From an uncultured Bacillota bacterium (lineage in GTDB: Bacteria; Bacillota_I; Bacilli_A; RFN20; CAG-826): a stretch of DNA of 49,624 nucleotides. Below the pieces are notes generated by a model. It worked only from the letters and a program-made list of their open reading frames with translations, ran no database searches and was not told the DNA's origin. A program made the position numbers and the translations under genes. Below, piece after piece: positions 15,844-46,307 of this stretch; the first letter of the stretch is position 1, and every line of letters starts with the position of its first letter. The stretch covers positions 1-49,624 of the forward strand of contig CASFVT010000031.1 in NCBI GenBank assembly GCA_949298195.1, in the 5' to 3' direction.

Positions 15844-16293
15844 ATGAAGCATTTGAGACTCTTCTCCACCTTGGTGTTATCCGCTTTCCTACTTTCATGC
15901 GCGCCGATCTCGAACCCCTCCTCTTCAACGAGTGAGGATCGGCCCCTGAATTGGTGTGTCATGCTCACGCTCAGGGATTCCTCGGAAACAGTCAATCCAT
16001 ACACCCCCTTTCGATTTCCGATTGAACAGGATGAATGGATTGCGAATGTGATCAGGATCCTCGACATCCGCGACGCCGCGAAGATTTCCTATGATCCAAG
16101 CGGCACGGATTATCTCGATCTCTACTACGAGAATCTTACGGATTTCACGCGGCACGATGTCTATCGGATCGAGGCGTATTCGTCTTCTCTCATTCGAAAA
16201 TACGTCGTCCAACCCAACAATCCCTCCTACCCAAGTCCCTACCGTTTAGGCTGGCCCGCCGAACTAAATAGCATCAGGAGGCAGCTACCATGA
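15844..16293 (+). CDS. Small lipoprotein, paralogue of the one at 18519
   Basis: 149 aa from the ATG at 15844 (MKHLRLFSTLVLSAFLLSC; lipobox Cys19). An upstream in-frame ATG at 15811 lies inside the promoter and is rejected. The mature part shares a pattern with the product of 18519: DEWIANVIRILDIRD versus DEWNANLFAILELRD, and HDVYRIEAY versus HDIYQMIVY. It overlaps the protease start by 4 nt (ATGA). Function unknown. Because two copies flank a secreted protease, a role as surface-bound partner or inhibitor is possible but only inferred. Confidence 0.75.
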   Translation: MKHLRLFSTLVLSAFLLSCAPISNPSSSTSEDRPLNWCVMLTLRDSSETVNPYTPFRFPIEQDEWIANVIRILDIRDAAKISYDPSGTDYLDLYYENLTDFTRHDVYRIEAYSSSLIRKYVVQPNNPSYPSPYRLGWPAELNSIRRQLP

Positions 16294-18509
16294 TTGCTTT
16301 GTATTCGCTTTCCCTTTTAATATCACTTGCCATTTCTGGTTTTTCCAGCACCGGTCAGTACGCGAGTTACAGTGACATGATTGATTTTGATGATTCCTAT
16401 TCTGACTTTGCAATTGAGCGAAATTCTTCTTCTGGTTCACCTGGGCATTTCTACGATTTCGAGATAGCGAAATTCAATTCCGGCATCAGAAGCGACCGAA
16501 CCGAATTCGGTGCCGGCATTACCATTGGGTCATTTGAAGAGAAGCCGAACACGACAACTTTTCTGTCGGATGTGGATTGGAAGGTCAAAGACGATGCAGG
16601 CGAAGTTAGTGAACACTCTTTTTTGACGAGCTCCGTTTTTGGTGGTAACACAGGAATCGCTTCGGAATCCGATGTCCTCTTCGGGAACTGCACTATCCCT
16701 TCTAATACTGCCGCCAGGTCTGCGTATTGGATGTGGCAAAACGGAGCGGACGTCATCACCTCGTCAATCGGTGAAGCGGATTTGGACGGGGTGTACCACG
16801 ATAAGAGTTGTTACCTTGATGAATTCGTCAATGATAGTGGCATTCTCGTAGTCGATGCAGCCGGAAATGATTTCCCATTGGATGCCGGCGTTAATTTTCT
16901 TGGCACGGGACTCAATACTCTTTCGATTGGCGGCTCATCGGCCTTCAATAATATTTATGTGAATAGTAACCACGGTCTTCTTGGATCAGATGATAACCCC
17001 AATGCACCTCATAAGCCAAATCTCGTCGCCCCGGCTGATTCGATCTTCGGAATCGACGGTTGGCGTGAACCGACTTCCGGAACCAGTTTGGCTGCCCCAT
17101 TTGTGGCTGGCATTTCAGCACTTCTCCTTGGTGAATTCCAAGATGAGTTGGAAAACTCGCCTGACCTTTTGGCGGCCGTTCTTTGCGCAGGCGCAACGAC
17201 GCTGAACGGGCAAACCAGCCGTTTCGATTCACGGGTCGGAGCCGGAATGGTCAATTACAGCCGTAGCCGTCGCATCATGCTGAAGCAAAACGCGGGTTAC
17301 GAAGTCGGTATACTGACGAGCGGAACAAAGATGTTTTCCCAGCGGTTCGTCTTGCAACCTGGCCAAACACTTACCCTTAGATGCCGTGTTCTGGTTGATT
17401 TGGGCTTTGATGCATTGGTTTATGATCCATTTGTAGAAGCCATTCCGTACTCGGAAATCGATTTTGCCCACCCATCGATAAGCATCCAATCGTCGGGTGC
17501 TCCGGTTTTTATCCCGCCCAATTCGCGACTCATCGAAAAAAAGGCCAACGAAGCGTCCTTGGTTTTCAAAAACAGTCTGAATTCCCCTCTGACTTTCACC
17601 GTGGGCATCGATGCCGAGGCCGGAACGGCCACGGGGAGCGATCCATTCGCCGTGGCTTACATAATCGATGAACCGGCTATTGGGGAACTTCATCTCAACA
17701 ACGCCTATCTTGACCAATCTCCCAGCCTTGCTTTGGCGGAGAATGAAACTCTGTTGGAGGATAACGACTCGTTTAACGTTGCCGTCTACACGGAGAGCGG
17801 GAATCAAATAATGGCCTTGGAAGACGTCGAAAACGGAGAAGTCATGAGCGACGATGATTGGGCTGCCATCATCGATTCCGACGGCCCATACTTTTACGCC
17901 CAGGCCTCGGCAGGCTCTGAAAAAAGCAAGTACTACTATTTTGCCGAGCCCAGGGAATATTCCCACCTAGTGCAGGTGCTTCCGGTTGACTGGGGCTACC
18001 GTGAAGCATATGACACCGAAGATAACGCTACCTATATTTTCGGCGGAATTGACTTGTCGGTTTCCCGCGAAAGGGTCGGCTATATCAAGAGTTCTTTCAT
18101 AAACCTCTCCCCGCGGAAGGCCAATCGAGGCCATGCGTATTGGCGCTTTGAATTCGCCAACCCGATCCAAGAAGCCCTCGTGGCGATGGCTTGGTGGTCT
18201 GAAAACGAGTACCAAGACGACGGGACCGCCTATGTCCACATCAAGGATTCTTCTGGCGTTTGGCACAAGGATGCCGTTGATTTGCTTGAACTCGAGATGC
18301 CGGCTTATTCAGATGGAATAACCCGTCTCGAAATCGGATATCCTGGGGGAATAGCCGGATTTGAAATCGAATTGACGAACGAAGCAACCGGCAGCCGGAA
18401 TAAGGGCCGCTTGTCGATTGACGACATAGTCTTCAAACAATACGGCTCCGAGTATTCGTGGATTTCGAAAAACTACGAAATTCAATCGCCTCTCCCGATA
18501 CTTCCGTAG
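16290..18509 (+). CDS. Secreted subtilisin-like serine protease (S8 family)
   Basis: 739 aa with an N-terminal signal peptide. The catalytic Ser266 lies in SGTSLAAPFVAG, the oxyanion Asn193 in VVDAAGN, and His109 in EHSFLTSSVFGGNTG. The segment equivalent to the catalytic Asp (AVIDTG in subtilisin) reads GITIGSFEEKP, so the acid is probably Glu83. No long inhibitory propeptide precedes the domain. About residues 330-739 are beta-rich and include a jelly-roll-like C-terminal domain (HAYWRFEFANPI, RLSIDDIVFKQYG). I see no LPxTG or C-terminal TM. The Shine-Dalgarno AGGAGG is 8 nt before the ATG. Base composition is less GC-biased than neighbouring core genes. Confidence 0.88.
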   Translation: MIALYSLSLLISLAISGFSSTGQYASYSDMIDFDDSYSDFAIERNSSSGSPGHFYDFEIAKFNSGIRSDRTEFGAGITIGSFEEKPNTTTFLSDVDWKVKDDAGEVSEHSFLTSSVFGGNTGIASESDVLFGNCTIPSNTAARSAYWMWQNGADVITSSIGEADLDGVYHDKSCYLDEFVNDSGILVVDAAGNDFPLDAGVNFLGTGLNTLSIGGSSAFNNIYVNSNHGLLGSDDNPNAPHKPNLVAPADSIFGIDGWREPTSGTSLAAPFVAGISALLLGEFQDELENSPDLLAAVLCAGATTLNGQTSRFDSRVGAGMVNYSRSRRIMLKQNAGYEVGILTSGTKMFSQRFVLQPGQTLTLRCRVLVDLGFDALVYDPFVEAIPYSEIDFAHPSISIQSSGAPVFIPPNSRLIEKKANEASLVFKNSLNSPLTFTVGIDAEAGTATGSDPFAVAYIIDEPAIGELHLNNAYLDQSPSLALAENETLLEDNDSFNVAVYTESGNQIMALEDVENGEVMSDDDWAAIIDSDGPYFYAQASAGSEKSKYYYFAEPREYSHLVQVLPVDWGYREAYDTEDNATYIFGGIDLSVSRERVGYIKSSFINLSPRKANRGHAYWRFEFANPIQEALVAMAWWSENEYQDDGTAYVHIKDSSGVWHKDAVDLLELEMPAYSDGITRLEIGYPGGIAGFEIELTNEATGSRNKGRLSIDDIVFKQYGSEYSWISKNYEIQSPLPILP

Positions 18510-19024: not shown

Positions 19025-19139
19025 GGTTCGCTTGGTTTTCCCAACTGATTTCGCAGTTTTGACGTTTCAGCGTAAAAAGTCGCAAGGAGAATCTCATGCA
19101 ATCCGAGCACTCGATTTCTGACCCGGGATTTCTTTTTCA

Positions 19140-19169
19140 CTCCCCTAAGGGGAGAAAATGCTCTACAAT
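19140..19169 (+). promoter_or_regulatory. jetA promoter with palindrome at the -35 position
   Basis: TACAAT (19164-19169) lies 7 nt before the ATG at 19177 with no Shine-Dalgarno between. The -35 position is occupied by a perfect palindrome, CTCCCCTAAGGGGAG (19140-19154), a candidate operator. Confidence 0.5.
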
Positions 19170-19176
19170 TCAACCA

Positions 19177-20574
19177 ATGAGCAATCTCTTCGATATCCTC
19201 CCCAGTCGTCTCTTCTCGGTTTTCAACCGGGCCGACCGCCGGGCCAACTATGACATGCTGGCCTACATATACTCCCTCTACAACGGCCGTGACGTCCGCT
19301 TGAGCATCGGGCGGGCGGAACTCGTCCGCCTCCTCACCGGCTTCATCTCGATGAAGGCCTACCTCGTGATGGAGAACGAGGACGGGGTCTCCCTCTCCGA
19401 CCGCGATGCCCGGGGAAAGGCCCTCGCCAAAATCAACCAATTCCGGGATACCGGCTGGCTCGAGGCCGATGCCAGCAACGACCGGGAACTCAAGATTAGC
19501 TACTCCCTCAACGACAACGCCGGGCGTCTCCTCCGCCTCCTCATCTCCATTGCCGGCGGGGAAGAGGAGAAGGTCGGCTATAGCGGCTATTTCTATGCCG
19601 TCTACCGCCTGCTCGTCCCCTTCGACATGGAAAAGGCCCGCGATGCCTTCTCCCAGGTCGTCCGCCTCACCGACGAGCTCTTCCAGTCCCTCCAAGGGGT
19701 CATCTCGGCCATCAAGCGTTTCATCGACCGCCTCCTCATGGACGAGAACCTCTCGCCGGAGGACATCCTCCGCCTCCTCCTCGACGAATACGAGGAGCAG
19801 GGCATCGTCTCGGTCTTCAACGACCTCAAGGGCAAGGACAACCCGAGCAAGTTCACCCTGGCCATCATCGACGAGCTCGAACTCCTGCGCGGCGAGAAGC
19901 TCGACGAGTTGACCTTGGCCTACATGCGCGGCGAGGACGCCTCCTCAGAACGCCTCCTCGAGGTGAAGAAGGGTCTACGGAAGGACCTCGAGCACTGCAT
20001 CCGGCGTTACCTCTCGGTCAATGACCTCGTCGCGGCCATCGACGAGAAGAACGCCCGTTTCTACTCCTCCTCCGTCAAGCGCCTCCGCTTCATCCTCAAT
20101 ACCTCGCGCGACGTCTCCGGGCGGATCGACGCCCTCCTCAAGATCCTCGCCGCCTCCGATCCGAAGGCCGATTACGGGGACGTCATCCCCATCGAGAAAA
20201 TCGGCCTCCTCGACGAGAACTCCCTTTATAGCGAGCCGATCGACCGGGAGAAGGAAGTCCGCCTCGACGCTGACATCCCCCCGGTTGACCGCACGGGTGC
20301 CGCGGCCGCCGCGGCCCTCCTATTCACCGACGATGCCTTCTCGATGAAGGAAATCGACGAATACGTCCTCGGCTTGCTTGGTAGTAGGGATGAGCTCCTC
20401 TCGACGGAAATCCCCCTGACCGACGACGATGACGTCTACCGTTACCTGTTGCTCCAGATGTACTCCACCTACAAGGAGACGTCTTATTCGATTGAATACC
20501 GTTCCGGCGGATCGAACAACGGTCCTTACCGGGTAAGGAACTTCGCGTTGCGCAAAAAGGAGGCCCGCCCATGA
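19177..20574 (+). CDS. jetA: JetA-like protein (Wadjet / MksF-like kleisin)
   Basis: 465 aa from ATG 19177 (MSNLFDILPSRLFSVF). In Wadjet/MksBEF systems JetA is the kleisin subunit that bridges the SMC-like ATPase and clamps DNA. The sequence is helical and acidic, with a winged-helix-like N-terminus (DMLAYIYSLYNGRDVRL, RAELVRLLTG) and long helical segments in the middle. Identification rests on the three-gene layout and overall pattern. An in-frame ATG at 19096 with a good AAGGAG would add 27 residues; I prefer 19177 because of the -10 spacing and because family members begin near this LF-LP-LF pattern. It overlaps jetB by 4 nt (ATGA). Confidence 0.8.
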   Translation: MSNLFDILPSRLFSVFNRADRRANYDMLAYIYSLYNGRDVRLSIGRAELVRLLTGFISMKAYLVMENEDGVSLSDRDARGKALAKINQFRDTGWLEADASNDRELKISYSLNDNAGRLLRLLISIAGGEEEKVGYSGYFYAVYRLLVPFDMEKARDAFSQVVRLTDELFQSLQGVISAIKRFIDRLLMDENLSPEDILRLLLDEYEEQGIVSVFNDLKGKDNPSKFTLAIIDELELLRGEKLDELTLAYMRGEDASSERLLEVKKGLRKDLEHCIRRYLSVNDLVAAIDEKNARFYSSSVKRLRFILNTSRDVSGRIDALLKILAASDPKADYGDVIPIEKIGLLDENSLYSEPIDREKEVRLDADIPPVDRTGAAAAAALLFTDDAFSMKEIDEYVLGLLGSRDELLSTEIPLTDDDDVYRYLLLQMYSTYKETSYSIEYRSGGSNNGPYRVRNFALRKKEARP

Positions 20575-21206
20575 GCGACCGTTTGACTGAACTAGACCGT
20601 TTCGACCTCGAGTACCGGAACCTGACCGAGGGAAAGCGCGGCGATTTCGCCCGCCTCGTCATGAAACTCCTCCGCGATACCTACGTCGTCAGGAAGAAGG
20701 GAGACGACGCCGGCGACTACTTCGCCCTCCTAACCAACAGTGCCCTCTTCGAATCCTTCTTCGCCCTCATCGACCTCGGCTTCGAGATCGACCGGGCCAA
20801 GGAAGTGGCCTATCTCGTCAATATGGAAGGCCGTGACCGCCTCCGCCTCGGCAAGTTCGACACGGCCCTCGTCCTCGTCCTCCGCAAGCTCTTCATCAAG
20901 AAGAGCCGCGAGGCCGCAAGTAGCGACCGCCTCCTCCTCCCGATGGGGGAAGTGATTGCCGCCATGAAGGAAGCCGCCCCTCTCGGGGGCAAGGAGCGGA
21001 TCTCCCATTACCGGGCCGCCCTCCGCCTCCTCAAGAAACACAAGATCGTCGATTGCCCCGCCGAGGTAAGCGAGGAATCGACCATTGAGATCTACCCGAG
21101 CATCGCCCTCCTGGTACCCCAAGAGGACCTCGATGCCATCGAGGAAAGGCTCGCGGCCATCGGCAAAACTGTAGAAGAGGGAGAAGAAAATGAAGAAACT
21201 GACTGA
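20571..21206 (+). CDS. jetB: JetB-like protein (DUF4194 / MksE-like)
   Basis: 211 aa. JetB/MksE is the small winged-helix partner (KITE-type) of the SMC complex. Visible are ARLVMKLLRDTYVVRK at the N-terminus, a central FFALIDLGFEIDRAKEVAYLV stretch and the RLRLGKFDTALVLVLRKLF segment, followed by a winged-helix-like ending and an acidic tail. It overlaps both neighbours, jetA by 4 nt and jetC by 17 nt, indicating tight translational coupling. Confidence 0.8.
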   Translation: MSDRLTELDRFDLEYRNLTEGKRGDFARLVMKLLRDTYVVRKKGDDAGDYFALLTNSALFESFFALIDLGFEIDRAKEVAYLVNMEGRDRLRLGKFDTALVLVLRKLFIKKSREAASSDRLLLPMGEVIAAMKEAAPLGGKERISHYRAALRLLKKHKIVDCPAEVSEESTIEIYPSIALLVPQEDLDAIEERLAAIGKTVEEGEENEETD

Positions 21207-24200
21207 CATCCGCCTCATCAATTGGCACGGTTTCTACGATGAAACCATCCCCGTCGACGGAAGCGTCCTCGTCGCCGGCGACAACGGGAGCGGCAAGTCC
21301 TCCCTCCTCGACGCCATCTACTACCTTTTGAGCGGTGGGGACGCGAACCATTTCAACTCGGCCGCCAACGAGAAGACCGACCGGACCCTCGAGACCTACA
21401 TGCGGGGGCGGACCGGCGAAAGCGGCCACCCCTACCTCCGGGAGGGGAAGGCCGTGGTCAGCCACATCGCCCTCCAGTTCCTCGACGAGAAGAAGGCCGA
21501 GAACTTCCTCGTCGGGGTGGCCCTCGAACTCCAGGAAGGCCAGCGCGACGTCCTCAAGACCTTCTATTACGTCCCCAACCACGCCCTCGATGATTCCCTT
21601 TTCAAGGACAAGGAGGGGCACGTCCTCAATTTCCGCCTCATGGAAGCCGAGGCCCCGATGGGGACTTTCCACCTCCTCGGCGACACCCAGAAGAAGATCC
21701 GGGCCTCCCTATATGACGAGGTCCTCGAGATCGACGGGAAGAAATACCTCGACCTCCTCCCGAAGGCCATCTCCTTCAAGCCGATCGACGACGTCCACGA
21801 GTTCGTCTACCGCTTCCTCATGCCCGAACGCGACGTCGATCTCACGGCCATGCGGACGGTCATCCACAGCCTCAACGAGCTCTCCCACTCGGTGAAGGAG
21901 GAAGAAGAGAAGAAAGAGGCCCTCCGTGCCATTTCCGAGAAGGGGAACGAATACACCAAGAAAAAGAAAGAGGCCTCTCTCTACGCGGCCCTTGCGACGA
22001 GCCTTGCCTCCACCTCGCTCGAAGACGAGCGGGAACGCCTCCTCGAGGAGAAGGAAGCCCTCATCAGCGCCGGAAAGGAACTCGAGAACAAGCGCTCCTC
22101 CCTCCTCCGGAGGAAAGAGGAATGCAACCGCGACCTCTACGCCCTCGAAAGCGATTCTTCCTTCTCCGCTTACAAGAACATCGACGATGCCATCCTGACT
22201 GCCGAGAAGAAGGAAAAGGAGGCCGAAAACCAAGCCCGGGCCTTCGAGTCGAAGCTGGCCCGCGAGGCCTCCTTGGCCCACGCCCTCTCGATTTCCGTCG
22301 AACTGCTCCCCTTCCTCGAGAAGCACGATTACCAAGGGCTCCAGTCACGGCTCCACAGTTACCAGAACCTCTTCAGGAAGAAGCGGGACGAGATCCGCTC
22401 CTCCTATAGCGCCGTCGAAAGCTCCCTCCTCGAGGAGAAGAAGGAGGCCCGCCGCCTCCAGCTCGAGATCGAGGAGCTCGCCGCCGGGCGCTCCGTCTAT
22501 CCCGAGGCTTTCGTCGCCCTCCGGAAGAAGATCATCGAGAGGGTCAAGGCCGAGACCGGGGAAGACATCGACATCCGTCCCTTCCTCGAACTGATCGATC
22601 TGAGGGAAGGCGAGGAGGAGTGGCGCAGTGCCATCGAATCCCTCCTCGGAGACCGCCGCTTCGACCTCTTCGTCGACCCGAAGTACTATCCGATTGCCCT
22701 GAGCGTCCTCGACGAGGAGAAGGAAAAGCATCCTTCGGGAATCGGCCTCGTCGACCTCGAACGCCTCCCCGCGGAAGTCGAGGTGAAGGAAAACTCCTTG
22801 GCCAAGAAACTCACGGCCCTGACCTACGACGCCGAGCGTTACCTCAACCTCCTCCTTGGGCGGATGGAAGCGGTGGACGACGCAATTGCCCTCCAAGGGA
22901 AGGAAGAGGCCCTCTCCCCCTCTGGCGTCGCCTACTACGAACGGGCCGCCCGTTCTTCGTCGAGTTACGGTTCGGTCCCCTACATCGGGGCCGCCTCACG
23001 GCACCTCCAACTCGAGGAAAAGGAGAGGGAGCTCGACGAGCTCACCCATGACATCGAACTCGGGGAAAGCGAGGCCAAGGACACCTATGCCCTCATCGAG
23101 CGGCTCGAGCATTCGAACCTCATGGGTCTCTTACAGGAGCCGAACCGTTGGGCCCTCCTCGAGGAAGCCCGGGGGGAGGTTGCCCTCCTCCGGGGTCGGA
23201 AGGAATCCCTCCAAGACGAATCCAGCGACCTCACCTACAAGGGCCGTCGGCTCGCCGAACTAAGGAAACTCCTCTCCGAACTGGAAGGCGAGGTGGCCGA
23301 AATCGACGAGGAAATCAAGGAAAACGCCAGCCGCCTCGGTTCCGACGAGACGCGGCTGCACTCGCTCGAAGGGGCCGTGAAGGGGAAGGAAGAGGAACTC
23401 ATCGCGATGCTCAAGAAGGAAGGGCTCACCCTCGCCTTCGAGGACTTCAAGAAGGACAAGGAACTCGCGAGCAAAGAAGCCAGCGCCGAAAGCACCCGGC
23501 TCCTCAATGAGCTCGTCAAGTCCGAACGGGAACTGCGTTCCCTCATGGGGAGCTACATCCGCCGTTTCTCCTTCGACGAGACCAACGAGATCGACGCCCT
23601 CCCGCATTTCCTCGAGGAGTACGACAAGGTGGCCAACCACGATCTCGTGAGCCACATCGACAAGCTCGAACGGGCTTCCGACAAGGCGGCCGAGAGCTTC
23701 CAAAACGACTACATCGCCAAGATCAGGAGTTCGATCGAGGAGGAGAAGAAGCACATCAAGAAGCTCAACGCCATCCTCGCCGGACGTCCCTTCGGTAGCG
23801 AAGGGGACGTCTACGAGTTCCTCATCGCCCCGGCCAAGGATCCCGATTTCCGGCCCTATTACGACATCTTCGCCTCCAAGGAGGACTTCGAGAAGCCCTC
23901 CCTCTTCACCGAGAACCTCTCGAAGAAGAACGAGGCCCTCATCGCGAGTCTATATGACCGCTTCACCCGCGAAGACGCGGACGAGAAGCTCATCCGGAGC
24001 TTCACCGACTACCGGAACTTCATGGACTACGACATCAAGATCACCGACCGGGAGGGTAGGACCTACCGCTTCTCGGAAATCTCCAAGTCGAAGTCCGGCG
24101 GCGAGACCCAGACCCCCTTCTACGTCATCATCGCGGCCAGTTTCGACCAACTGCTCCGCGAAGACCGCGGGGAAGCCTCGCCTGGATGCCTTGTCATGTT

Positions 24201-24399
24201 CGACGAGGCCTTCGAGAAGATGGACCAATCCCACGTCGAGAGCATGATGCGTTACTTCCGCGAGCTTTCGATCCAGCCTCTTCTCGCCGTGCCGGGCAAC
24301 CAAGCCAAGGCCATTGCCCCCTACGTCGATACCAAGGTTGCCCTCGTCAAGCAAGGCGGGAGGATCATCGCCTCGAGCCTTCTCAAGGCCGCAAACTAA
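21190..24399 (+). CDS. jetC: JetC-like SMC-family ATPase (MksB-like)
   Basis: 1069 aa. The N-terminal ATPase half has Walker A GDNGSGKSSLLD (residues 30-41), and two long coiled-coil regions (about 230-480 and 620-870) flank a hinge-like segment. The C-terminal half has the ABC signature SKSKSGGETQTPFYV and Walker B CLVMFDEAFEKMD. JetC/MksB dimers load onto DNA and extrude loops; in full Wadjet systems the JetD nuclease then cuts plasmids. No JetD-like gene (a toprim/Topo VI-type nuclease of about 400 aa) is found upstream or downstream in this window. A strong terminator follows the stop. Confidence 0.9.
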   Translation: MKKLTDIRLINWHGFYDETIPVDGSVLVAGDNGSGKSSLLDAIYYLLSGGDANHFNSAANEKTDRTLETYMRGRTGESGHPYLREGKAVVSHIALQFLDEKKAENFLVGVALELQEGQRDVLKTFYYVPNHALDDSLFKDKEGHVLNFRLMEAEAPMGTFHLLGDTQKKIRASLYDEVLEIDGKKYLDLLPKAISFKPIDDVHEFVYRFLMPERDVDLTAMRTVIHSLNELSHSVKEEEEKKEALRAISEKGNEYTKKKKEASLYAALATSLASTSLEDERERLLEEKEALISAGKELENKRSSLLRRKEECNRDLYALESDSSFSAYKNIDDAILTAEKKEKEAENQARAFESKLAREASLAHALSISVELLPFLEKHDYQGLQSRLHSYQNLFRKKRDEIRSSYSAVESSLLEEKKEARRLQLEIEELAAGRSVYPEAFVALRKKIIERVKAETGEDIDIRPFLELIDLREGEEEWRSAIESLLGDRRFDLFVDPKYYPIALSVLDEEKEKHPSGIGLVDLERLPAEVEVKENSLAKKLTALTYDAERYLNLLLGRMEAVDDAIALQGKEEALSPSGVAYYERAARSSSSYGSVPYIGAASRHLQLEEKERELDELTHDIELGESEAKDTYALIERLEHSNLMGLLQEPNRWALLEEARGEVALLRGRKESLQDESSDLTYKGRRLAELRKLLSELEGEVAEIDEEIKENASRLGSDETRLHSLEGAVKGKEEELIAMLKKEGLTLAFEDFKKDKELASKEASAESTRLLNELVKSERELRSLMGSYIRRFSFDETNEIDALPHFLEEYDKVANHDLVSHIDKLERASDKAAESFQNDYIAKIRSSIEEEKKHIKKLNAILAGRPFGSEGDVYEFLIAPAKDPDFRPYYDIFASKEDFEKPSLFTENLSKKNEALIASLYDRFTREDADEKLIRSFTDYRNFMDYDIKITDREGRTYRFSEISKSKSGGETQTPFYVIIAASFDQLLREDRGEASPGCLVMFDEAFEKMDQSHVESMMRYFRELSIQPLLAVPGNQAKAIAPYVDTKVALVKQGGRIIASSLLKAAN

Positions 24400-24580: not shown

Positions 24581-24627
24581 TTCTTAACCCCTTTGGGGTT
24601 TAAGAAGTCTTAACAAACGTCTATACT
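24581..24627 (+). promoter_or_regulatory. Promoter and long inverted repeat upstream of surface cassette 1
   Basis: TATACT (24622-24627) ends 6 nt before the ATG at 24634, with no Shine-Dalgarno. Upstream, TTCTTAACCCC (24581-24591) and GGGGTTTAAGAA (24595-24606) form an inverted repeat around TTT, covering the expected -35 region. It could be an operator. The 24443-24580 stretch shows nothing else. Confidence 0.5.
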
Positions 24628-24633
24628 TCGCCT

Positions 24634-25266
24634 ATGAGGATGAACAGACGTGGGTTCCGTCGTGATCTAGGGATGGTTAGCGCCCTCTTGCTGACCCTTT
24701 CATCCATCAGCCTTTTCAGTCTCGGGTTTTCATCCTTTGCTTTGAACGACAACCCCCCTGTCTATGGCACGGTTTCGGCCGAGTTCGCCCCTGTTTTGGA
24801 AATAATCTCAGTCGATTCTTCCCATGATGGCGGGTGGGTGGAGCCCTTCACCTTCTGCCGCGACGGGTTCGTCATCGACGGAAAACTCCATGACACTGCA
24901 AGCCACGTTTTCCATCTTCTTTTGGATGCCTCAAAGGCCTATTCAAGCGGGCTATTGGAGGACGGTTCCCTCCGGATTGGCGTCGATTTGACCGAAGGCG
25001 GCTCCTCTCCCATCTTCGTGAAGGAAGGAATCCTCGGCGGTCTCTCGGTCGGTTATTCTAATCGGGCTCTCACCGCGAATCCCGTCTTCAATGATATCGG
25101 GGCGAGTTTTGAAGCTTCCCTCCCCCTTGCCGGTGACGAAGGAACCATTCCCCTTTCCATGTCGTTCGCCTTCAATGTTCCGGCTGATTCGATCGACGCG
25201 GTATTTACCGCGGCGGCTGCGGTGGAATCATTGAAAATGAACCTTTCCGTCGAGGTGCTCGGATGA
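24634..25266 (+). CDS. Small secreted protein of surface cassette 1 (SipW-type signal, TasA-like layout)
   Basis: 210 aa. A basic N-terminus (MRMNRRGFRRDLG) is followed by a hydrophobic stretch ending LGFSSFALND, similar to SipW-processed signal peptides of TasA/camelysin-type fibre proteins. The mature part is about 180 residues with beta-type patterns and no recognised catalytic motif. Its last codons overlap the ATG of the Hint-domain gene (ATGA), so the pair is co-translated. The homologous position in cassette 2 holds a similar protein. A TasA-like role is inferred from layout only. Confidence 0.7.
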   Translation: MRMNRRGFRRDLGMVSALLLTLSSISLFSLGFSSFALNDNPPVYGTVSAEFAPVLEIISVDSSHDGGWVEPFTFCRDGFVIDGKLHDTASHVFHLLLDASKAYSSGLLEDGSLRIGVDLTEGGSSPIFVKEGILGGLSVGYSNRALTANPVFNDIGASFEASLPLAGDEGTIPLSMSFAFNVPADSIDAVFTAAAAVESLKMNLSVEVLG

Positions 25267-28200
25267 GAAGGAAATCGCGTCTACTCCCGATGATGTTCGG
25301 CCTGGCCGGCGGGATAACCCTCCTCTCGTCTTTAGCTTACGGTGCATATGTCTTCGTTTCGGCAAAGACCGAAACCAAACCGGTCATCGACCCGAACGCC
25401 CAGGCGGTTTGTTATCTCAATGATCCCGACAACCGTTATGTCTCTTTCAAAAGCGCGTTGGACGATGCACACGCCGATGGGGGCGGCATCGTCGTGGCCA
25501 TTCCCCCGAGCGATGCTTGCGTCTATCCGAATGGCGGGACTTACTCGAACAAGAACGACTTGATCGCCCAGCTGGCCCCTGAACGAGTCGAATATACCCT
25601 CGAGGAAAATATAACCGTTTATTCGGATACTTATCTGGTTCTTCCTTATGACTCCAGCTCGATGGAAGGGATTTCCCTTTCCAACATCGAATCATCCTAC
25701 ATCGAGCAGATGAAGACCCCGCCTTACAACCACACGGACAATCCGTCGACCGTCAAAGTCGGTACCAGCAATTACAACTTCCTGACCAATGCGGCTACCG
25801 ATTACGCCGGCCTTTTCCAGCGTACCGTCCTCCGGGTGAAGCCAGGGATCCAAATCCACAATCAGGGAACGATCGTCGTTTCGGGCATTCTTTCCGGCGG
25901 TTACGGCGGTTCGGCCTACAACGGTCAGACTTCCCATAGCTATGCCGAGATAATCTTGGAAAGCGACGCGGAAAACGGAGCCTCGAAAATCGTCCAGGAT
26001 GTCTCTTCGGCCGATCTATACTGCTATGGCTACATCAGCGAAGAAGGCGGCTCCGGTTCGCTGGAAGTTTCGAGTGGCCGCGTTTTCGAACCGTTCATCC
26101 TCCGAGATTATCGGGCCATCCCATCCTCCTATGCCGTTTATCGGAGTGGCATGAACGAAACCTATCTGTGCTCCCCATTCAATCAATTCGAGCTTAGGAA
26201 CATCTCAGCGAGCCTAACGTTGAGGGACGGTGGTTCCCTGATTGGGATGGCAAACATCTATGATGTCTTGCAGGTTCCCCTTCCACAAAGAATCGACTTG
26301 AATCTTATCGGAAACGGCGAGCAGTACTTCCTAGATTTCAAAGACGGTGCCTACCTTAGGGCAAAATACAATCCGTCGACTCAGGTCTGCGATGCTGATT
26401 TTTACGGCGGTTTCGACCTCCGGAGCATCGTGATGTCGCTTTCGGCCATGGGACAAGACGTTACCTTGAATACGAATCTTTGCTTGTTCCCACTCTCATA
26501 TCGATTTGACATCGGCCTAAATGGAAACGGGGCGGTCTACGATTGCAACAACCAGAACGTGAAAGTCATGACCGGTGCCAAACTCGAAGTCGGGAGCGGC
26601 GCCACCCTCAACGTCAATCGCCTGGTGGTTTACACGGCCTTTGCCGACCGTGCCAAACCATCGACCATGGTTACCCAAGCCGGTGGAACCGCTTATCCGT
26701 CCAACAAGAACGGCGGGGAATTCCGGGTTGCCGGGGCGGTGAACGCCCAATATCTGGCCGGGAACCTCATCCTTGAAAACGGTGGTTCCTACGTGGTTCC
26801 GGAAGGAAGCGACCGTACTGCCTTCACATCCTATGAATTCCTTTCGATGGACTCTTCCGCTAGTGGTTTGGTTCCGTATGCCGTGCAAGCTTATACCCAA
26901 CTCAAAGAGGAACTGAACGTGATTGATGCGAGTGACCTCGATGAATTGGTTCCCCTCTTCATCGGTGTTCAGACGTTCTCGAACCTTCCGGATTATTGCC
27001 CTTCCTATGTCTTGAATGTCTTCGACCCGGTTTCGGCCGCTTCCCGTTTGGATCCAATCCGCGGATTCATCCCAAGCCAGGTTCGGGCGGCATCCGGCCT
27101 TCCGTCTGGGGAATATGCGAGTAGCGATGGTGTCCAGCGAACTTATCTCATGAGTCCCGGAACACGTTACCAATATCGCCTGCTCGGGGACATCTATCTT
27201 GTCTACGAGAACGGATCGAGTTGGTCCTCGGTATACGAATTCGATTCGATAAGGACAATCGAAAAGGCCACGAATGCCTATGTCATTTCCTCTAATCTCT
27301 CGATTGAGGAGTCTGATTTCCCGATTGCCGGTTTCGATGTAGGGTCGCTCTCGCACCCCATCCCGAGCGACAACCCCGACGAGCAGATCTATCCGCTATT
27401 CGTTGGCAAGACCATCCAACTCACAGGTTCGATAGCGAATGCCGACAAGGCCTACATTAAACGGCTGAGTTGGTCGACCTCTGATGCGAAAATTGCCAGA
27501 ATCACCCCGAGCTCCGATACCATAAACGTCACGGTTACTGGTGTTGCGGTCGGCCAAGCGACGATTATGGCGAAAGCCGGGGATTTCACGGACACCTTCG
27601 TGGTTCATGTTTATCAAAGCATTGATGATATTGGAAGCGGCTTCGTTGGACTCGACGAGTCGCAATGTTCCATCTCTTCCGATCCTTCGGATCGAATCAC
27701 CAGTAGCAGCGGGGGGACAGCGAATTTCACTGTCCATTACAACGCTGGGGCTTGGATCAACACGATTACATGGACCGTAAACGGTTCGGGTCGTTGGGAA
27801 TCGACGGGGACAACCAGTGCCTACTACGACACATCGGCTGATTGTACTTTCGGGGCCCAGTCCGGTATGTTTAGCGACGTCTATACCGTCACCTGCACGC
27901 TCGTCGATTATGCGGGCAAGAGCGTGAAAGTGACGAAGGAATTCAAAGTTGGATTGATTGATAAACCTGATACATGTATTGTCGCTGGCACCCTCATCAC
28001 TTTGAGCGATGGTTCCGAAATACCAGTCGAAGACATACAACCTGGCGACGAGCTCCTAGTCTTTAACCACGAAACCGGAAAGATAGATAGCGCACCGGCC
28101 GTCTTCAACGACATGGATCCGCTCGGCTATTATGATGTGATCGAACTTACCTTCGATGACGGGAGCACCCTGGGCATTTCCTATCAGCACGCTCTCTTCG

Positions 28201-28643
28201 ATGTCGATGCCAATGAATACGTCTATGTCGATGAAAGTTCCTATCAAAGCCTCATCGGACACCGTTTCTACAAAGAAGGCGGAAAGGTAGCCACCTTGGT
28301 CGACGCCAAACTCGAGAACCGGCTTTGCGTCGTCGGCTCGCCTGTCAGCGACTGGCATCTGAACTTCTTCACCAACGGCTTCCTTGGGATGCCCGGAAAC
28401 ATTACCGGTTTCTTCAACATGTTCGAACTCGATGAGAACATGAAATACGACGAGGAAGCCAAAGCACGCGACATCGAGGAATATGGCCTCTTCACCTATG
28501 AAGACCTCAGCGACTACATGGTGCCGGATGCCTTCCTCCATTTCCCATTCGCCTATACCAAAGTATCCATTGGCAAAGGCCTCATGAGTTATGACGATTT
28601 GATTGGCATCCTCGAGCACTATCGCGAATATCTCTTCTATTGA
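25263..28643 (+). CDS. Large surface protein with Ig-like domains and a C-terminal Hint (Hedgehog/intein) domain
   Basis: 1126 aa. An N-terminal TM/signal anchor (about 10-34) precedes a long beta-rich region (60-690) that looks like a beta-helix. Then come a BIG2-type Ig domain (about 705-785: VGKTIQLTG, LSWSTSDAKIARI, VAVGQATIMA), another Ig-like domain (786-900) and a Hint domain from Cys905 (CIVAGTLITLSDGSEIPVED, GDELLVFN). The B-block His is His976 (SYQHALFDVD). Hint domains activate the peptide bond before their first Cys, so the extracellular N-terminal part may be cleaved or transferred to a nucleophile. About 110 residues after the Hint core are conserved in the cassette 2 protein. 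No sortase motif is present. Confidence 0.85.
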   Translation: MRRKSRLLPMMFGLAGGITLLSSLAYGAYVFVSAKTETKPVIDPNAQAVCYLNDPDNRYVSFKSALDDAHADGGGIVVAIPPSDACVYPNGGTYSNKNDLIAQLAPERVEYTLEENITVYSDTYLVLPYDSSSMEGISLSNIESSYIEQMKTPPYNHTDNPSTVKVGTSNYNFLTNAATDYAGLFQRTVLRVKPGIQIHNQGTIVVSGILSGGYGGSAYNGQTSHSYAEIILESDAENGASKIVQDVSSADLYCYGYISEEGGSGSLEVSSGRVFEPFILRDYRAIPSSYAVYRSGMNETYLCSPFNQFELRNISASLTLRDGGSLIGMANIYDVLQVPLPQRIDLNLIGNGEQYFLDFKDGAYLRAKYNPSTQVCDADFYGGFDLRSIVMSLSAMGQDVTLNTNLCLFPLSYRFDIGLNGNGAVYDCNNQNVKVMTGAKLEVGSGATLNVNRLVVYTAFADRAKPSTMVTQAGGTAYPSNKNGGEFRVAGAVNAQYLAGNLILENGGSYVVPEGSDRTAFTSYEFLSMDSSASGLVPYAVQAYTQLKEELNVIDASDLDELVPLFIGVQTFSNLPDYCPSYVLNVFDPVSAASRLDPIRGFIPSQVRAASGLPSGEYASSDGVQRTYLMSPGTRYQYRLLGDIYLVYENGSSWSSVYEFDSIRTIEKATNAYVISSNLSIEESDFPIAGFDVGSLSHPIPSDNPDEQIYPLFVGKTIQLTGSIANADKAYIKRLSWSTSDAKIARITPSSDTINVTVTGVAVGQATIMAKAGDFTDTFVVHVYQSIDDIGSGFVGLDESQCSISSDPSDRITSSSGGTANFTVHYNAGAWINTITWTVNGSGRWESTGTTSAYYDTSADCTFGAQSGMFSDVYTVTCTLVDYAGKSVKVTKEFKVGLIDKPDTCIVAGTLITLSDGSEIPVEDIQPGDELLVFNHETGKIDSAPAVFNDMDPLGYYDVIELTFDDGSTLGISYQHALFDVDANEYVYVDESSYQSLIGHRFYKEGGKVATLVDAKLENRLCVVGSPVSDWHLNFFTNGFLGMPGNITGFFNMFELDENMKYDEEAKARDIEEYGLFTYEDLSDYMVPDAFLHFPFAYTKVSIGKGLMSYDDLIGILEHYREYLFY

Positions 28644-28700
28644 AAATTCTGTTTTTGGTTTTGACGCCTGGGATTTGAACTCATCTTTCCGACTAAGCCC

Positions 28701-28718
28701 ATTACAATTTGCTGTAAT
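28701..28718 (+). promoter_or_regulatory. -10 region and inverted repeat of surface cassette 2
   Basis: ATTACA (28701-28706) and TGTAAT (28713-28718) form a perfect inverted repeat. TGTAAT serves as a -10 exactly 7 nt before the ATG at 28726, again leaderless. TACAAT at 28703-28708 is an alternative -10. Confidence 0.45.
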
Positions 28719-28725
28719 CCCCGCG

Positions 28726-29344
28726 ATGAGAAAGCGCTCCTCCTTCTTGGCAACCAGCTCCCGGATTGTCGGGGGGTGTTTTACTAGCCATCGCCTTGGC
28801 CTCTAGCCTTAGTGTTGGCTTTGCCTCGTGGCTCATGACTGCCTCGGGAAATGCCTATCCCGCTGACGGTAGCCTCCCGGTTGACGTAGCCGATGTGGTC
28901 GAAATACCGCTTCTATCGGTGTCCAACGTCAGTGGTTTTGCCATCGGTAGCGACGGCCTCGCCAACGAGGATGAGGTTCTGAGCGAGGCGACGGTCGTCT
29001 ATGCTATTGCTATCGAAAACGATTTGGCCTCTACCGGCGGCTATCTCTCGGAGTCCGGGGCAATCAACCTTGAACTGATTTTCGCTTCGGAGAACCAAAA
29101 GGGCTTGTTTTCGCCGTCTTACCTAGCGGAATCGGAGTTGACCGTGGGGAGTCAGACTGTGGTAGGCACCGGAAGCGTTTATTCGGCCACCGATGGTAGT
29201 CTTTCGACGAGCGGGATTGCCGTGCCCCTTTCAAATGGCGAGAAGACCGAGGTCAAGGTCACTTATCGTTTCAGTGGCGATCTATCGGCCTTCTACAATC
29301 CGCTTCCCAAGTTTACCTTGACTGCCGGGGCTCTCCATCAATGA
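28726..29344 (+). pseudogene. Small secreted protein of cassette 2, frameshifted in a G6 tract
   Basis: Counterpart of the 24634 gene. From ATG 28726 the frame reads MRKRSSFLATSSRIVGG and then fails after the six-G run at 28771-28776. Removing one G continues into VLLAIALASSLSVGFASWLM and an open frame to 29344, giving a 205-aa protein with a classic signal peptide close in size to cassette 1's 210 aa. A TTG at 28766 could restart translation but would lose the basic N-terminus. The end overlaps the next ATG by 4 nt, as in cassette 1. Slippage-based phase variation, decay and sequencing error are all possible. Confidence 0.75.
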
Positions 29345-32047
29345 GAAAGCACAGTCTGTCTCTGCCAATCCACGTCCTCTCCCTCGGGGTTCTTCTTTCC
29401 GTCTGCGCGGGATCTGCCACTTTCGTCGTCATCAAGGACGATGGCTTCGTTACCAAGGTCTTGACGGCTGATGCCGCCTACAAGACGGTCGCAACCATCG
29501 GGAGCAAGAAATACACCAACATCGGCAAGGCCATCGCTGACAGCAGGAGCGGTGACGTCATCGAGGTGATTCCAGGCAACACCGGTGCCAACCGCCGCTC
29601 GAGCCGTGATTACACGATCAGGATGCCAATTGGGATGGCGGGAGACACCTTGACGATTCCCCAAGGCGTCACCCTGAACATCCCCTATGAAGCCGGGAAA
29701 GCCAACTCGAAGACACCGGATGGTGTCATTTCTACCCATGCTTTCGCGAACAAGGACGCCTACTGCAAGTCCTCGGTCATCCTCGACGACGGATTGACCC
29801 TCGTTAACGAAGGGAAAATCGAAATCGGTGGGGTTGTCGGGGCGGCCGGCGGTGGAACGCCCAGCGGTTGTACGGCGGGAAGTTTCAGCGAATTTATTCT
29901 AGGAGAAGGTTCAAAGCTCATGAGCCATGGGGAGATTTGGGCCTATGGGCTCCTTTCCGAAGTAAGCGAAGGCACCTCGGAAGTCATCCTCCGGCCCAAT
30001 GAAGACGGAAATTTGCTATCTACCGATGTATTGGTACGATTTCGGCGGTGGAAGCGCCCTTAAGGCCATCTATGATGCGGTAGATGAGCGGGGATGCATA
30101 CCGATTGACGATTTCTACATGGAAAACGTCGAAAATCGGACGATCATCCATTCCGGTGCCGAAGTCACGTCTTGGGTGAACCTTTATGCCGCCGATAGCA
30201 ACGGTGAGTATGATCTCAAATTGATCGGTGACGATTCTACCGCGGTAATAACCCTCGCCGACCCGCAGTCCTACCTAGTGACGGATTTCGACCCGACCGC
30301 CATCAAGCACCACCTCGATTTTTACGGAGGCGCCGTATTCGGTTCCCTCGTGATAAATACCAAACAGGCCATCATCGATGCTGCCGGTAGTGGTGCTTGG
30401 ACTCTAGCTTCAATCGCGGGCCTACCAGCTGAAGTCTCCACGTCCGATGGATATTTCCCGCTCTCGCATGTTTTTGACATTTCGCTCAATCCCCTCCCCG
30501 AGAGTGAGAGCACGGCCTTTTACGATGCCAATACCGTAAAGTACAAGCTCCTTAATTCCGCGCGTCTACATGTGGCGAAAGGAGCGTCTTTCAAAACGGG
30601 CGGGTTGGCAGTCTATGACGGAACCGATTATTTAGGTGGTCGCGGGACACACGCTTCTTCCTTGAAAAAGAGCCTTAATCCAAACACAACCCCGGCCGAG
30701 GCCATAGTTGACGGCCAATTGACCGCAGATTTGGTTGTCGGAACCGTGGAAACGAACCAGTCAAACTCCAAAATCGTTGCCAATGCCGTGACTAGTACCG
30801 TCATGTTTGAACCGAAGGAAGGAACTGGAAAGCAGTTTACGGCGAAGATGTTAGATGACGAGCAAGGCTGGTTCTATATACCGTTGTCCTTGACTTTGCG
30901 GGATAGTGCCGGTGATTATCGCGATTACGGTGGAAGCCTTGGAAGTTTCTCAAGCAAACCTGGTGACGGCTATCATTATTGGGAATTGACCACGGACAAT
31001 GAACTCAAATCAGTGAGCATTTCAAGCCCAAATGGTTTTGAAAGCGGGAAGAATGCAGCGGCGACCTTCAATCTATCCTCCGTCCTGAATCCGACTAGCC
31101 CCGATAGTCGTGACATCCAATATGACTGGTCGGTTGCCGGCTCCAATCCCGATGGCGGGACTGCCACTTTGACAGTGGATCAAAACGACCCGTCAAAAGC
31201 AACTTTGCATCTTCCCGCCAATTCGAGCGAAGACACCGATGGGTATTTCACGGTTACATTGAAGGTAACTGCCATGTCCAGCCTTACCGGTGAGCAAATC
31301 ACCGTCGCGACAAGTGAAAGATTTATCGCGGTGCACAAGGATGATCCGTGTTTTGAAGCCGGCACGATTGTCCTGACCAAGGCTGGAGCGAAGAAAATCG
31401 AGAACCTTGAGGCCTCCGATCTTGTTGTTTCCTATGATCAATGGACTGGCGAGCTCCGCTACAGCCGGATTGCCCTTTTGGTCAATCACGGTGAGGACGA
31501 GTATGCGGTCATGGAGCTTCATTTCGACGACGGCTCATATATCGGTTTCATCAATAGCCACTGTCTTTTCTCGGTTGACGATGGATGTTATTTGGATTTC
31601 CGACCCGATAATTTCCGATCCTATGTCGGAAAGAGCTTCCTGAAGCTATCGGAAGACGGGAAACTCGTGGAAGTCAAGCTGGTCAAAGCCGAGCTCGTGA
31701 AGAAGACAACCACTTCCTATACCGTCATTTCCAGCGAAGACCTCAACTGCTTCGGGAACGGGCTCCTAAACCTCACGACCATCCTCAAGGGCATCTATAA
31801 CATCTTCGATTGCGATTCCCACGGTCTCATCGAGAGAGTCAAGGCCAAGGCCGATATTGAGAAGTACGGCCTCTTTGGCTATGCGGACTTCCGTGAGGCC
31901 ATCCCCGAACAGGTATTTGTCGACTTCGGATTCAAATACTTCAAAGTCGCGATGGGCAAGGGAATCCTCGATAAGGACACCCTGGATTACTACATCCGTT
32001 GGTTCTACCAGTTGCTTGCCTCGGGTGAGGGACAAGTGGTTTCATAG
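29341..32047 (+). pseudogene. Hint-domain surface protein of cassette 2, one frameshift
   Basis: Counterpart of the 25263 gene; about 901 aa if repaired. The first frame (29341-30063) has a signal anchor and a beta-helix-like start (NIGKAIADSRSGDVIEVIPG). The remainder is one frame over and runs to 32047. The best join is in the AAATTT stretch at 30009-30014: removing one base gives a smooth passage from RPNEDGN to YLPMYWYDFGGGS. The Hint domain starts at the Cys codon 31349 (CFEAGTIVLTKAG) with the B-block His in NSHCLFSVDD. The C-terminal tail matches cassette 1 (KYGLFGY, FKVAMGKGIL versus EYGLFTY, TKVSIGKGLM). No BIG2 domain is obvious. Confidence 0.75.
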
Positions 32048-43697: not shown

Positions 43698-46307
43698 CTA
43701 AAGGGAGAGGTATTCCGCCCGCGGGCAGTCGAAGTGGAGGTCGACCCCGGAGTCCAGGAAGAGGATGCGGTCGTCGTCCATTTCGAACCGTTGTTCCTCG
43801 AGGCTGTCCCCCAAATAGATGGAAAGCCTCTCGAGCCCGGCGAAGGGCGCATCGCCCGAGGAGACGGAAATCCTCGATCCACGCGGGACATAGAAGCGAA
43901 GGAGCCTCGTGGAGGAGGCAAAAAGCCCGCTGGTTTCCAGGTAGAGGGGAGTGTCCGGCCCTTCATATTCGAAGCTCTCGAGATCGGGTGCCGAAAATAA
44001 GGAATCCCCCCCGAGGACGTAGGGGTCAACGTCCCCTTGGGGGCTTTGGGTCTCGTAGACGATTCCCCGTAGCCCCGTGAGGTCGTGGGAGAAGGCGTAT
44101 TGGGGGAAACCCCGGACGGGAATGGAAGCCCCCACCCGGGCTGGAATGACGAGAGTTTCCGGCACTTCGCCGGCTAGTCCGAGGGCCCCGGCCGATTTCG
44201 ATCCCGTCGATTCGTCCTCGTAGATCCCGAAGACGATCCCGTCCTCGATGAGATAATCCGCGAGGCGAAGGCCCAAACCGGTTCCCGAGTGGACGTCGAA
44301 GCCTTCCCCGAGATGACGTTCGATGTCGGGGTGGCTCGGGAGGACGCTATCGAAAGGCTCCGTGTCGCGGAAATACATCGTCGGGCTCGCTTCCCCGTTT
44401 TCCGGTCCGGTGACCGCCGGGAGGTAACGGAGGGTCGAAGGGAAGATGGCCCCGCGGAGGGAGGGGCAGCCGGCGAAGGCATTCGCGGCCACCCCGACGA
44501 CGGGGAACGCTTGGCTTTCCCCTTCGATTTCGTGGTGGACATAGTCCGGGATCTCGAGGAAGGCCGCCTCTTCCGGGGGATGGACCAGCCAGGCGACGGC
44601 GTTACCCTCGACGTCGATCCCGATGAGGTATCGGGAGGAATCGACCATGAGGGATCTCTCCCATACCTCCTCAATCAAGAAGACGGTGTAGACGTTGGGT
44701 TCGTCGACGAGCTCGGGGTGGGCATCGGTCACGAGGAGGGTACCGTTCGATAGATATGCCGAGCGGACGTCTTGATCGAGCGGGGATCCATGATACCCGC
44801 GTTCATCGTCGAGCTTGGCGTGGACATACTTGAGGCTCGGGAGGAAGGCATCGAAATCCGGATACCCCTCGACCTCCAGTTCGGCGACCCCCGTTCCCCG
44901 GAAGGCCGAGATGGGGAAGTCGGTCCCGCCGACGGTTTTTTCCGCGACCGGACCCCGGAAGGTGACGTCGACGAGGTTCGGGCAGCCGGCAAAGGAGTCC
45001 TCGGAGAGATCCACCCCGGGGGGTAGTGAAATGGAGGTGAGGGAAAGACATCCCTCGAAAGCCTTCGGGTCGACGATGAGGCCGTCCTCGAAATCCGGGA
45101 GGGAAATCGTGTGAAGGGAAGAGCAGCCTTCGAAGCAACCCCCGCGGATGTAGGAGAGGTTGTTCGGCCATTCGATTTCCTCGAGGGAAAGGCATCCCGA
45201 GAAGGCCCCGCCCGGCAAGTGCTCGTCGGAATCGACATAGAGGGCATGCCCGTAGACGCGGTCGGTTTCCTCCCATTCGGGGACGGGGATGTCCTCGTCC
45301 CCGGCCAGGGTGACTTTCCTCAGATCCACCGAATCCTCGAAGGCGTAGCTCCCGAGGACGGCGAGGGAAGCGGGGAGGACGATTTCCTCGAGGCCCGAAG
45401 TCCGGATGAAGGAGGCACGCCCGACGGCAAATACCTTCGGGGGGATCTCGATGCGGGAGGGGAGCTCACATTCCATGAAGGCAGAGCTGACGATGAAGCG
45501 GAGCGTTTCCGGTAGTTCAAGGGAAGTCAGCCTTTTCCCGGCAAAGGCGAGGGGGCCGATGCCGTAGACCTCGAGGCTCTTCTCTTCGTGAACGATCGTC
45601 TCGGGAACGATGACATCGCCTTCCGTTCCGTCGTAGGAGGCGATGAGGGCCCCATGGCCCCCGTCCGGGAATTCCCTGACCCCGTAACGGAAGCCGCCTT
45701 GCTCCCCGTGATCGATGACCCCGGCCGCGACCTTCGCGCCCCCCAGGTCGATCGATCCCCCATAGCCGAGGGAGGTATAGATGACGAGGTCGCCGCCGTC
45801 TTGGAAGTCGTTCGTATCGAGGCAGCCGCCTTCGTAGAAAACGCTACGGAGGGAATCGCATTCGGCGAAAGCCGCGTAGCCGATGGAGATATCGTGGAGG
45901 GTGAGTTCCTCGAGGCGGTCGCAATCGTAGAAGGCGTTGGTCTCGATGCAACGGAGGTTTTCCGAGAAAACGATGGAAGTGACCCCGGTTCCGGCGAAGG
46001 CACTTTGGCCGATTTCGAAGACGGGCAGGATTCCTTCCTCGCCCTCATAGGTCTCGGGGACGACGAGTTCCCCTTCGTAATACCCCATTATTAGGGGATA
46101 CAGGACGTAACCGGGTTCCCCGTAATGGTCGGTGTATTCGACCCGGAAGGAGTCGGGGTCAGTGATAGACGAGGAGGGAATTTCGGGCGATGTCTCCGGG
46201 AAAGAGACATCCGTCGACGTCTCGGCTTCCCAAATCAGGAAGCCGCACGAGGAAAGTAGGGAAGCCGGTAGAAGGAGAAGGAGGAAGCCCAAAGCCTTTT
46301 TGCCCAT
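43698..46307 (-). CDS. BspA-like leucine-rich-repeat lipoprotein
   Basis: 869 aa with lipobox Cys21 (LPASLLSSC). Multiple Treponema-type LRR units (LRR_5) are visible, for example IGQSAFAGTGVTSIVFSENL, IETNAFYDCDRLEELTL, FSGCLSLEEIEWPNNL, FEGCSSLHTISLP and FAGCPNLVDVTF. The repeats come in at least three blocks separated by beta-rich linkers that start PVFEIG- or VYGIGPLAF-like. BspA-type LRR proteins are surface adhesins that bind host matrix or other bacteria; that role is inferred from the family. The start is fixed by the signal peptide; the upstream TAAAAA/AAGGGG is ambiguous between a -10 and a Shine-Dalgarno. Confidence 0.88.
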   Translation of the reverse strand: MGKKALGFLLLLLPASLLSSCGFLIWEAETSTDVSFPETSPEIPSSSITDPDSFRVEYTDHYGEPGYVLYPLIMGYYEGELVVPETYEGEEGILPVFEIGQSAFAGTGVTSIVFSENLRCIETNAFYDCDRLEELTLHDISIGYAAFAECDSLRSVFYEGGCLDTNDFQDGGDLVIYTSLGYGGSIDLGGAKVAAGVIDHGEQGGFRYGVREFPDGGHGALIASYDGTEGDVIVPETIVHEEKSLEVYGIGPLAFAGKRLTSLELPETLRFIVSSAFMECELPSRIEIPPKVFAVGRASFIRTSGLEEIVLPASLAVLGSYAFEDSVDLRKVTLAGDEDIPVPEWEETDRVYGHALYVDSDEHLPGGAFSGCLSLEEIEWPNNLSYIRGGCFEGCSSLHTISLPDFEDGLIVDPKAFEGCLSLTSISLPPGVDLSEDSFAGCPNLVDVTFRGPVAEKTVGGTDFPISAFRGTGVAELEVEGYPDFDAFLPSLKYVHAKLDDERGYHGSPLDQDVRSAYLSNGTLLVTDAHPELVDEPNVYTVFLIEEVWERSLMVDSSRYLIGIDVEGNAVAWLVHPPEEAAFLEIPDYVHHEIEGESQAFPVVGVAANAFAGCPSLRGAIFPSTLRYLPAVTGPENGEASPTMYFRDTEPFDSVLPSHPDIERHLGEGFDVHSGTGLGLRLADYLIEDGIVFGIYEDESTGSKSAGALGLAGEVPETLVIPARVGASIPVRGFPQYAFSHDLTGLRGIVYETQSPQGDVDPYVLGGDSLFSAPDLESFEYEGPDTPLYLETSGLFASSTRLLRFYVPRGSRISVSSGDAPFAGLERLSIYLGDSLEEQRFEMDDDRILFLDSGVDLHFDCPRAEYLSL

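Follow-up and report, generated by a model that had tools for sequence, protein, structure and literature searches.

Architecture of the locus

The window analysed here, the whole stretch of 49,624 nucleotides (nt) of contig CASFVT010000031.1 from the small genome of an uncultured Bacillota bacterium, harbours two consecutive gene cassettes, A and B, in which a gene for a small exported protein overlaps a gene for a large exported protein with a C-terminal Hint module of the Hedgehog/intein type. In the case of cassette A, the intact copy, a -10-like hexamer (TATACT, 24622-24627, + strand) lies 6 nt upstream of the ATG that opens small gene A (24634-25266, + strand), with no clear -35 seen upstream, in agreement with the leaderless start proposed by a first-pass annotation made from the sequence alone. 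The product of 210 amino acids (aa) carries a SipW-type signal (GFSSF), encoded without any poly-G tract, and the gene shares a 4-nt ATGA overlap with Hint gene A (25263-28643, + strand), which codes for an exported protein of 1126 aa; this plan had been annotated before and was recovered here in every part. Hint protein A contains a Big_2 Ig-like domain (residues 714-777, 27402-27593, + strand; E 1.4e-5, above the cut-off), a Hint core (residues 905-1047, 27975-28403, + strand) whose first residue, Cys905, is the Cys1 of the module, and a conserved helical tail (residues 1048-1126, 28404-28640, + strand), placed like the sterol or adduct recognition region (SRR/ARR) of Hedgehog proteins. The sequence immediately preceding the start of small gene A contains a near-perfect inverted repeat (24581-24606), which may be either a terminator or an operator.

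Cassette B follows the plan of A, with its frames broken at two places as assembled. A -10-like TGTAAT (28713-28718, + strand) lies 7 nt before ATG 28726, the likely start of small gene B (28726-29344, + strand), and this ATG and the gene body are in different frames (the listed open reading frame, or ORF, begins with TTG 28766). The frame of the ATG runs into a G6 run (28771-28776, + strand), the same position in the signal peptide being occupied by G10 and G11 in paralogues. Hint gene B overlaps small gene B through the ATGA at 29341-29344 and is divided into an ORF of 240 aa (29341-30063, + strand) and another of 682 aa (29999-32047, + strand), which ends in the Hint module (31346-32044, + strand, from the Cys to the C-terminus); this further break lies away from any G tract. 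Since the two ORFs are in different frames, the second Hint protein of about 900 aa that had been annotated is not a single ORF, and the idea of tandem cassettes on one plan stands in full for A, whereas for B the overlap is present but both genes are frame-broken. The broken frames of B, the conserved tail behind the Hint core and the poly-G tracts of relatives, the latter invisible in the window, go beyond that annotation.

The Hint module and its tail

Hint modules were detected in 32 of the 193 genomes searched, the own genome included, at 46 places. Structure prediction, followed by fold comparison with solved structures, gave a Hint fold with high confidence, as had been supposed for the large proteins, with BIL2 (6y75) as the closest solved structure; the comparison spans mainly model residues 7-153, that is, the core. 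By sequence profiles, the modules fall below the Pfam gathering scores, both for A (PF01079, 17.5 versus 29.7 bits; PF13403, 15.5 versus 28.4 bits) and for B (17.1 and 20.5 bits, respectively), and PF07591 (PT-HINT) had no match in the own genome. Among 168 aligned modules, in which most other positions vary, Cys1 is kept in all 168 and the B-block His72 in 166, as had been expected for the catalytic pair, and an acidic residue occupies position 46 in 129 (Asp in 91, Glu in 38). A Cys at the SCYA-equivalent place, matched by eye, occurs in 57. The C-terminal His-Asn and following extein required for splicing were not found in these modules, aligned to inteins by eye, where mostly Ser and Met stand instead. 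Past the core, about 80 residues form a tail of several short helices with Gly171 in 168/168 modules, Tyr170 in 96% and Lys201 in 97%; its place and size are reminiscent of the sterol/adduct recognition region of Hog domains (PMC2362128).

The module is C-terminal in 167 of the 168 cases, the exception (L065, genome G123) being a module with tail inside a frame of 2326 aa that ends in a hydrophobic, membrane-like segment. In another locus (L068, genome G021), the frame of a signal peptide containing a G6 run continues directly into a Hint module midway through the latter, likely as a deletion remnant. Of 367 homologous proteins found, 120 were listed; 98 of these have a signal-like hydrophobic N-terminal stretch, and among the matches listed the make-up varies greatly, with subtilase, MBG, Flg_new or camelysin domains. 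At least five homologues combine camelysin (PF12389) and a Hint module in one protein according to precomputed domains, and a scan of two of them reproduced the PF12389 match.

The closest known systems differ from these modules in several ways. Hedgehog Hog domains (PMC2362128, PMC9163320, PMC13060885) have a Hint core with Cys1 and His72 on the same numbers and an acidic residue at 46, as in 129 of the 168 modules, together with a helical C-terminal extension past the core and an exported N-terminal part; the modules described here are bacterial, mostly lack the Gly at -1 and the Thr of the TxxH motif, and their tail is likened to SRR/ARR by place and size. BIL domains and inteins share the fold, and the former occur within variable parts of a range of bacterial proteins (PMC5874633). 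Unlike them, the present modules have a conserved tail instead of the C-terminal His-Asn (by eye) and C-extein. Polymorphic toxins, such as MafB and others with PT-HINT, are large exported proteins with a Hint domain close to the C-terminal end, followed by a varying toxin tip, whereas one conserved tail occupies that position here.

The small partner gene

Full modules could be assessed at 42 of the 46 places, one (G153) not having been fetched and three (L067-L069) being fragments. Of these, 36 are directly preceded by a small gene whose product, in most cases about 190-250 aa long, bears a SipW-type signal (32 recognised by a scripted motif and four by eye, namely L030, L035, L040 and window B), so that the pairing exceeds chance among relatives; the overlaps between both genes depend on the start choice of the script. 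The remaining six modules are those of L046, L064, L065 and L066, one of the two in L055, and that of L034, a split gene with an upstream region that was not assessed. As for six named loci, one has the pair (L028), none was found in another (L027), and the other four extend past the end of the fetched sequence. The first-pass annotation had named a missing Hint fold, loss of the Cys and His, and failure of the small gene to co-occur in relatives as outcomes fatal to its proposal, and none of the three occurred.

The small proteins diverge strongly, with 11-27% identity to small protein A, and have a conserved signal motif (consensus GFxSW). The signal had been called TasA/camelysin-like: its SipW type is borne out, but the camelysin label is not, as none of the 36 aligned small proteins matches PF12389 at E<=0.1, and no Pfam family matched convincingly. 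A sequence search with small protein A found only itself, and a profile of the 36 gave five matches, one of them the query; with searches so nearly empty, the small protein cannot be placed. Its predicted model, from a 7-row alignment, reached a predicted local distance difference test score (pLDDT) of 52, with no structure match at E<=0.001, and matches in the PDB were not used.

SipW-type signals are known from the small exported proteins of the TapA-SipW-TasA system of Bacillus subtilis and from CalY of B. cereus; these Bacillus operons are not known to hold a Hint protein. The likeness extends to the peptidase, since a threshold of E<=0.001 detects a SipW-type enzyme in 31 of the 32 Hint genomes versus 104 of the 161 others (p 9e-5), and above the family cut-off in 27/32 versus 50/161 (p 3e-8, counted by hand). 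The own genome has one above the cut-off (contig C19, 32241-32603, of genome G000), and the sole Hint genome without the enzyme (G115) is also among the places without a small gene. On the other hand, the small proteins have no convincing Pfam match, and their model is poor. Filament systems of the TasA/CalY type have been described (PMC10151520, PMC9674648, PMC13082335), one of them as sortase-independent.

A sortase-independent role had also been suggested for the Hint proteins. The absence of LPxTG on which it was built extends to the 120 homologues listed, none of which has the motif in its last 60 residues, and the own genome yielded no sortase. Sortases occur in 1/32 Hint genomes versus 10/161 others (11/193 in total; Fisher p 0.69), which fits such a role but is not specific to it.

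Poly-G tracts in the cassette family

Tracts of G8-G11 are present in 15 of the 36 cassettes, 13 of them in the signal-peptide codons of the small gene, where the charged part meets the hydrophobic part, and two between -35 and -10. By hand counts from listings (one genome without Hint module, G043, left out of the census), the 32 genomes contain 142 distinct tracts of G>=8, of which 15 map to 5′ ends among the 46 places, versus a random expectation of about 0.02. In six loci of 26-33% GC (L041, L043, L051, L054, L056 and L058), the tract is the only run of G6 or longer fetched. Three cassettes cut by contig or fetch ends (L090, L091 and L093) also carry such tracts.

A hand comparison of the frames across the 13 signal-peptide tracts placed three copies in frame (L043, L059 and L060), whereas the other ten were out of frame, with shifts of both kinds. 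In six of the ten (L030, L031, L052, L053, L056 and L062), a hexamer that agrees with TATAAT at 5/6 or 6/6 positions lies 6-7 nt upstream of the out-of-frame start, and in L040 such a hexamer lies 8 nt before it; the matches of L045, L051 and L058 are weak. As estimated with a custom script, the ratio of nonsynonymous to synonymous substitution rates (dN/dS) between the orthologous small genes of L051 and L058, both out of frame, is 0.20 over 200 codons, and that between L039 (in frame, no long tract) and L040 (out of frame, with a frame change in its last codons) is 0.19 over 190 codons; two further pairs gave 0.22 and 0.32. Small genes that are under purifying selection although out of frame are what would be predicted from switching, and the tracts likely point to phase variation of the cassettes. 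A recoded TGA, considered for L030, where TGA stands in place of a usual Trp, was dropped, TGA ending ORFs here, for example at the ATGA overlaps.

The own genome has six tracts of G>=8. The G11 and G10 lie in the small genes of two other Hint cassettes (contigs C12 and C30); another G10 (L084, C12:36528) and a G9 (L087, C19:34725), the latter adjoining the SipW-type peptidase gene, are upstream of other TasA-like exported proteins; and the remaining two, both G8, have no such gene in sight. The fetched loci, selected in part because they carry tracts, contain 48 distinct tracts of G>=8; 14 of these are flanked by -35- and -10-like hexamers at a suitable spacing, versus 0.9% of random positions, so variable promoter spacers seem to be a habit of the group; Hint cassettes own two of the 14. 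Promoter-spacer tracts were seen before many kinds of genes (L095, L101, L104, L106 and L109-L115).

Poly-G contingency genes are known in Campylobacter and in PilC of Neisseria, and variable promoter spacers in the vlp genes of Mycoplasma hyorhinis. The cassettes resemble them in having a homopolymer in the signal-peptide codons or the -35/-10 spacer of surface genes, and differ in lineage and in that one homopolymer would control two genes together, with a Hint-tailed protein as the partner. No paper joining RF39 with phase variation was found, nor, among the titles and abstract openings listed, any describing a small-gene/Hint cassette in the literature covered, which excludes most subscription journals.

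Genomic neighbourhood

Directly upstream of cassette A lie the Wadjet genes JetA, JetB and JetC (19096-24399, + strand); JetD was not recognised among the few neighbours scanned. A causal link between the cassettes and these genes was considered and dropped for want of supporting evidence. The window also codes for a subtilase-family protein near the Wadjet genes (16290-18509, + strand) and for a BspA-type leucine-rich-repeat protein (43698-46307, - strand).

Discussion

The interpretation that we favour, and hold to be somewhat probable, is that cassettes A and B are paralogues in a family of surface cassettes, whose Hint module would cut before its Cys, likely with transfer to an envelope acceptor, and in many members of which a poly-G tract would likely be a switch. 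The pathway would start with an N-S acyl shift at Cys905, through which the module would cleave the large protein at the bond preceding this residue. The new C-terminus could then be transferred to a cell-envelope acceptor held by the tail, rather than released by plain hydrolysis. The small protein might act as a filament subunit or a chaperone, and slippage of the G tract would switch the gene pair on or off, the Hint protein being lost along with the small protein through the gene overlap. A bolder version, which we advance only tentatively, regards the family as a bacterial counterpart of Hog, in which Hint plus an adduct-recognition tail would cleave phase-variable surface proteins and load their C-termini covalently onto the envelope, a self-contained replacement for sortase across hundreds of bacterial surface proteins.

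Several observations weigh against these proposals. BIL2 and some inteins are nearer in fold than Hedgehog, the Hedgehog-like Gly at -1 is present in only 45 of the 168 modules (Ser in 60), and the Thr of TxxH in three. Sortases are rare in all the relatives searched, and their absence from Hint genomes is thus not specific. In cassette A, an SD-like (Shine-Dalgarno) GAGGTG precedes the start of the Hint gene, which therefore need not be coupled to the small gene. As for the switch, 21 of the 36 cassettes, A included, have no tract of G8 or longer; two of the ten out-of-frame copies bear second lesions, a stop codon behind the signal in L030 and a frame change in the last codons of L040; and no change of tract length within a species was seen in a sample of one genome per species. 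The G6 of cassette B, one of ten such runs on the + strand of the window, is not above chance and proves nothing alone, and a switch there is only weakly suggested.

With regard to the chemistry, the module may only cut: the bond before Cys905 would be hydrolysed, and the protein released or its two pieces held together, with nothing joined. We take this as a real possibility, though not the outcome that we expect. Cleavage is the least demanding chemistry, because the C-terminal Asn and the C-extein that splicing needs are absent, and the variation of the -1 residues agrees with it, but a conserved tail of some 80 residues, with an invariant Gly171, should exceed the needs of plain hydrolysis.

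The G tracts allow two other explanations. They could be recoding sites, where ribosomal frameshifting or slippage of the RNA polymerase would keep the out-of-frame genes constantly expressed at a low level. Polymerases slip on long G runs, and the purifying selection on out-of-frame copies would fit as well; however, in-frame copies exist next to out-of-frame copies of both kinds, and in two cassettes the tract sits in the promoter spacer, where recoding has no effect, all of which makes this explanation unlikely. It seems similarly improbable to us that the broken frames are homopolymer errors of sequencing or assembly, or pseudogenes, with cassette B decayed or misassembled. The genomes appear to be metagenome assemblies, the titles of six named loci containing MAG (metagenome-assembled genome), cassette B has its second break, in the Hint gene, where there is no G run, L030 and L040 bear second lesions, and L034 is another split Hint gene, but errors shift frames and do not build up G8-G11 at a single position in loci with a GC content of 26-33%, nor do they account for the dN/dS of L051 and L058, out of frame in both genomes. 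Finally, a catalytically dead module serving as a folded C-terminal binding domain would agree with the scarcity of the TxxH Thr, activity being a prediction, and is very improbable given a Cys1 and a His72 that persist amid mostly variable positions.

Returning to transfer and switching as the favoured reading, if the tail is an adduct-recognition region, these proteins would bring to bacteria a self-anchoring chemistry as known in Hedgehog-type proteins, and the tail would give a handle for finding the acceptor. Independently of this, the G tracts would flag a variable surface layer in a little-known bacterial lineage, with a state that could be read straight from metagenome reads. In any case, if the proposal is true, a lineage mostly without sortase could vary, and possibly attach, its surface proteins in an unusual way.
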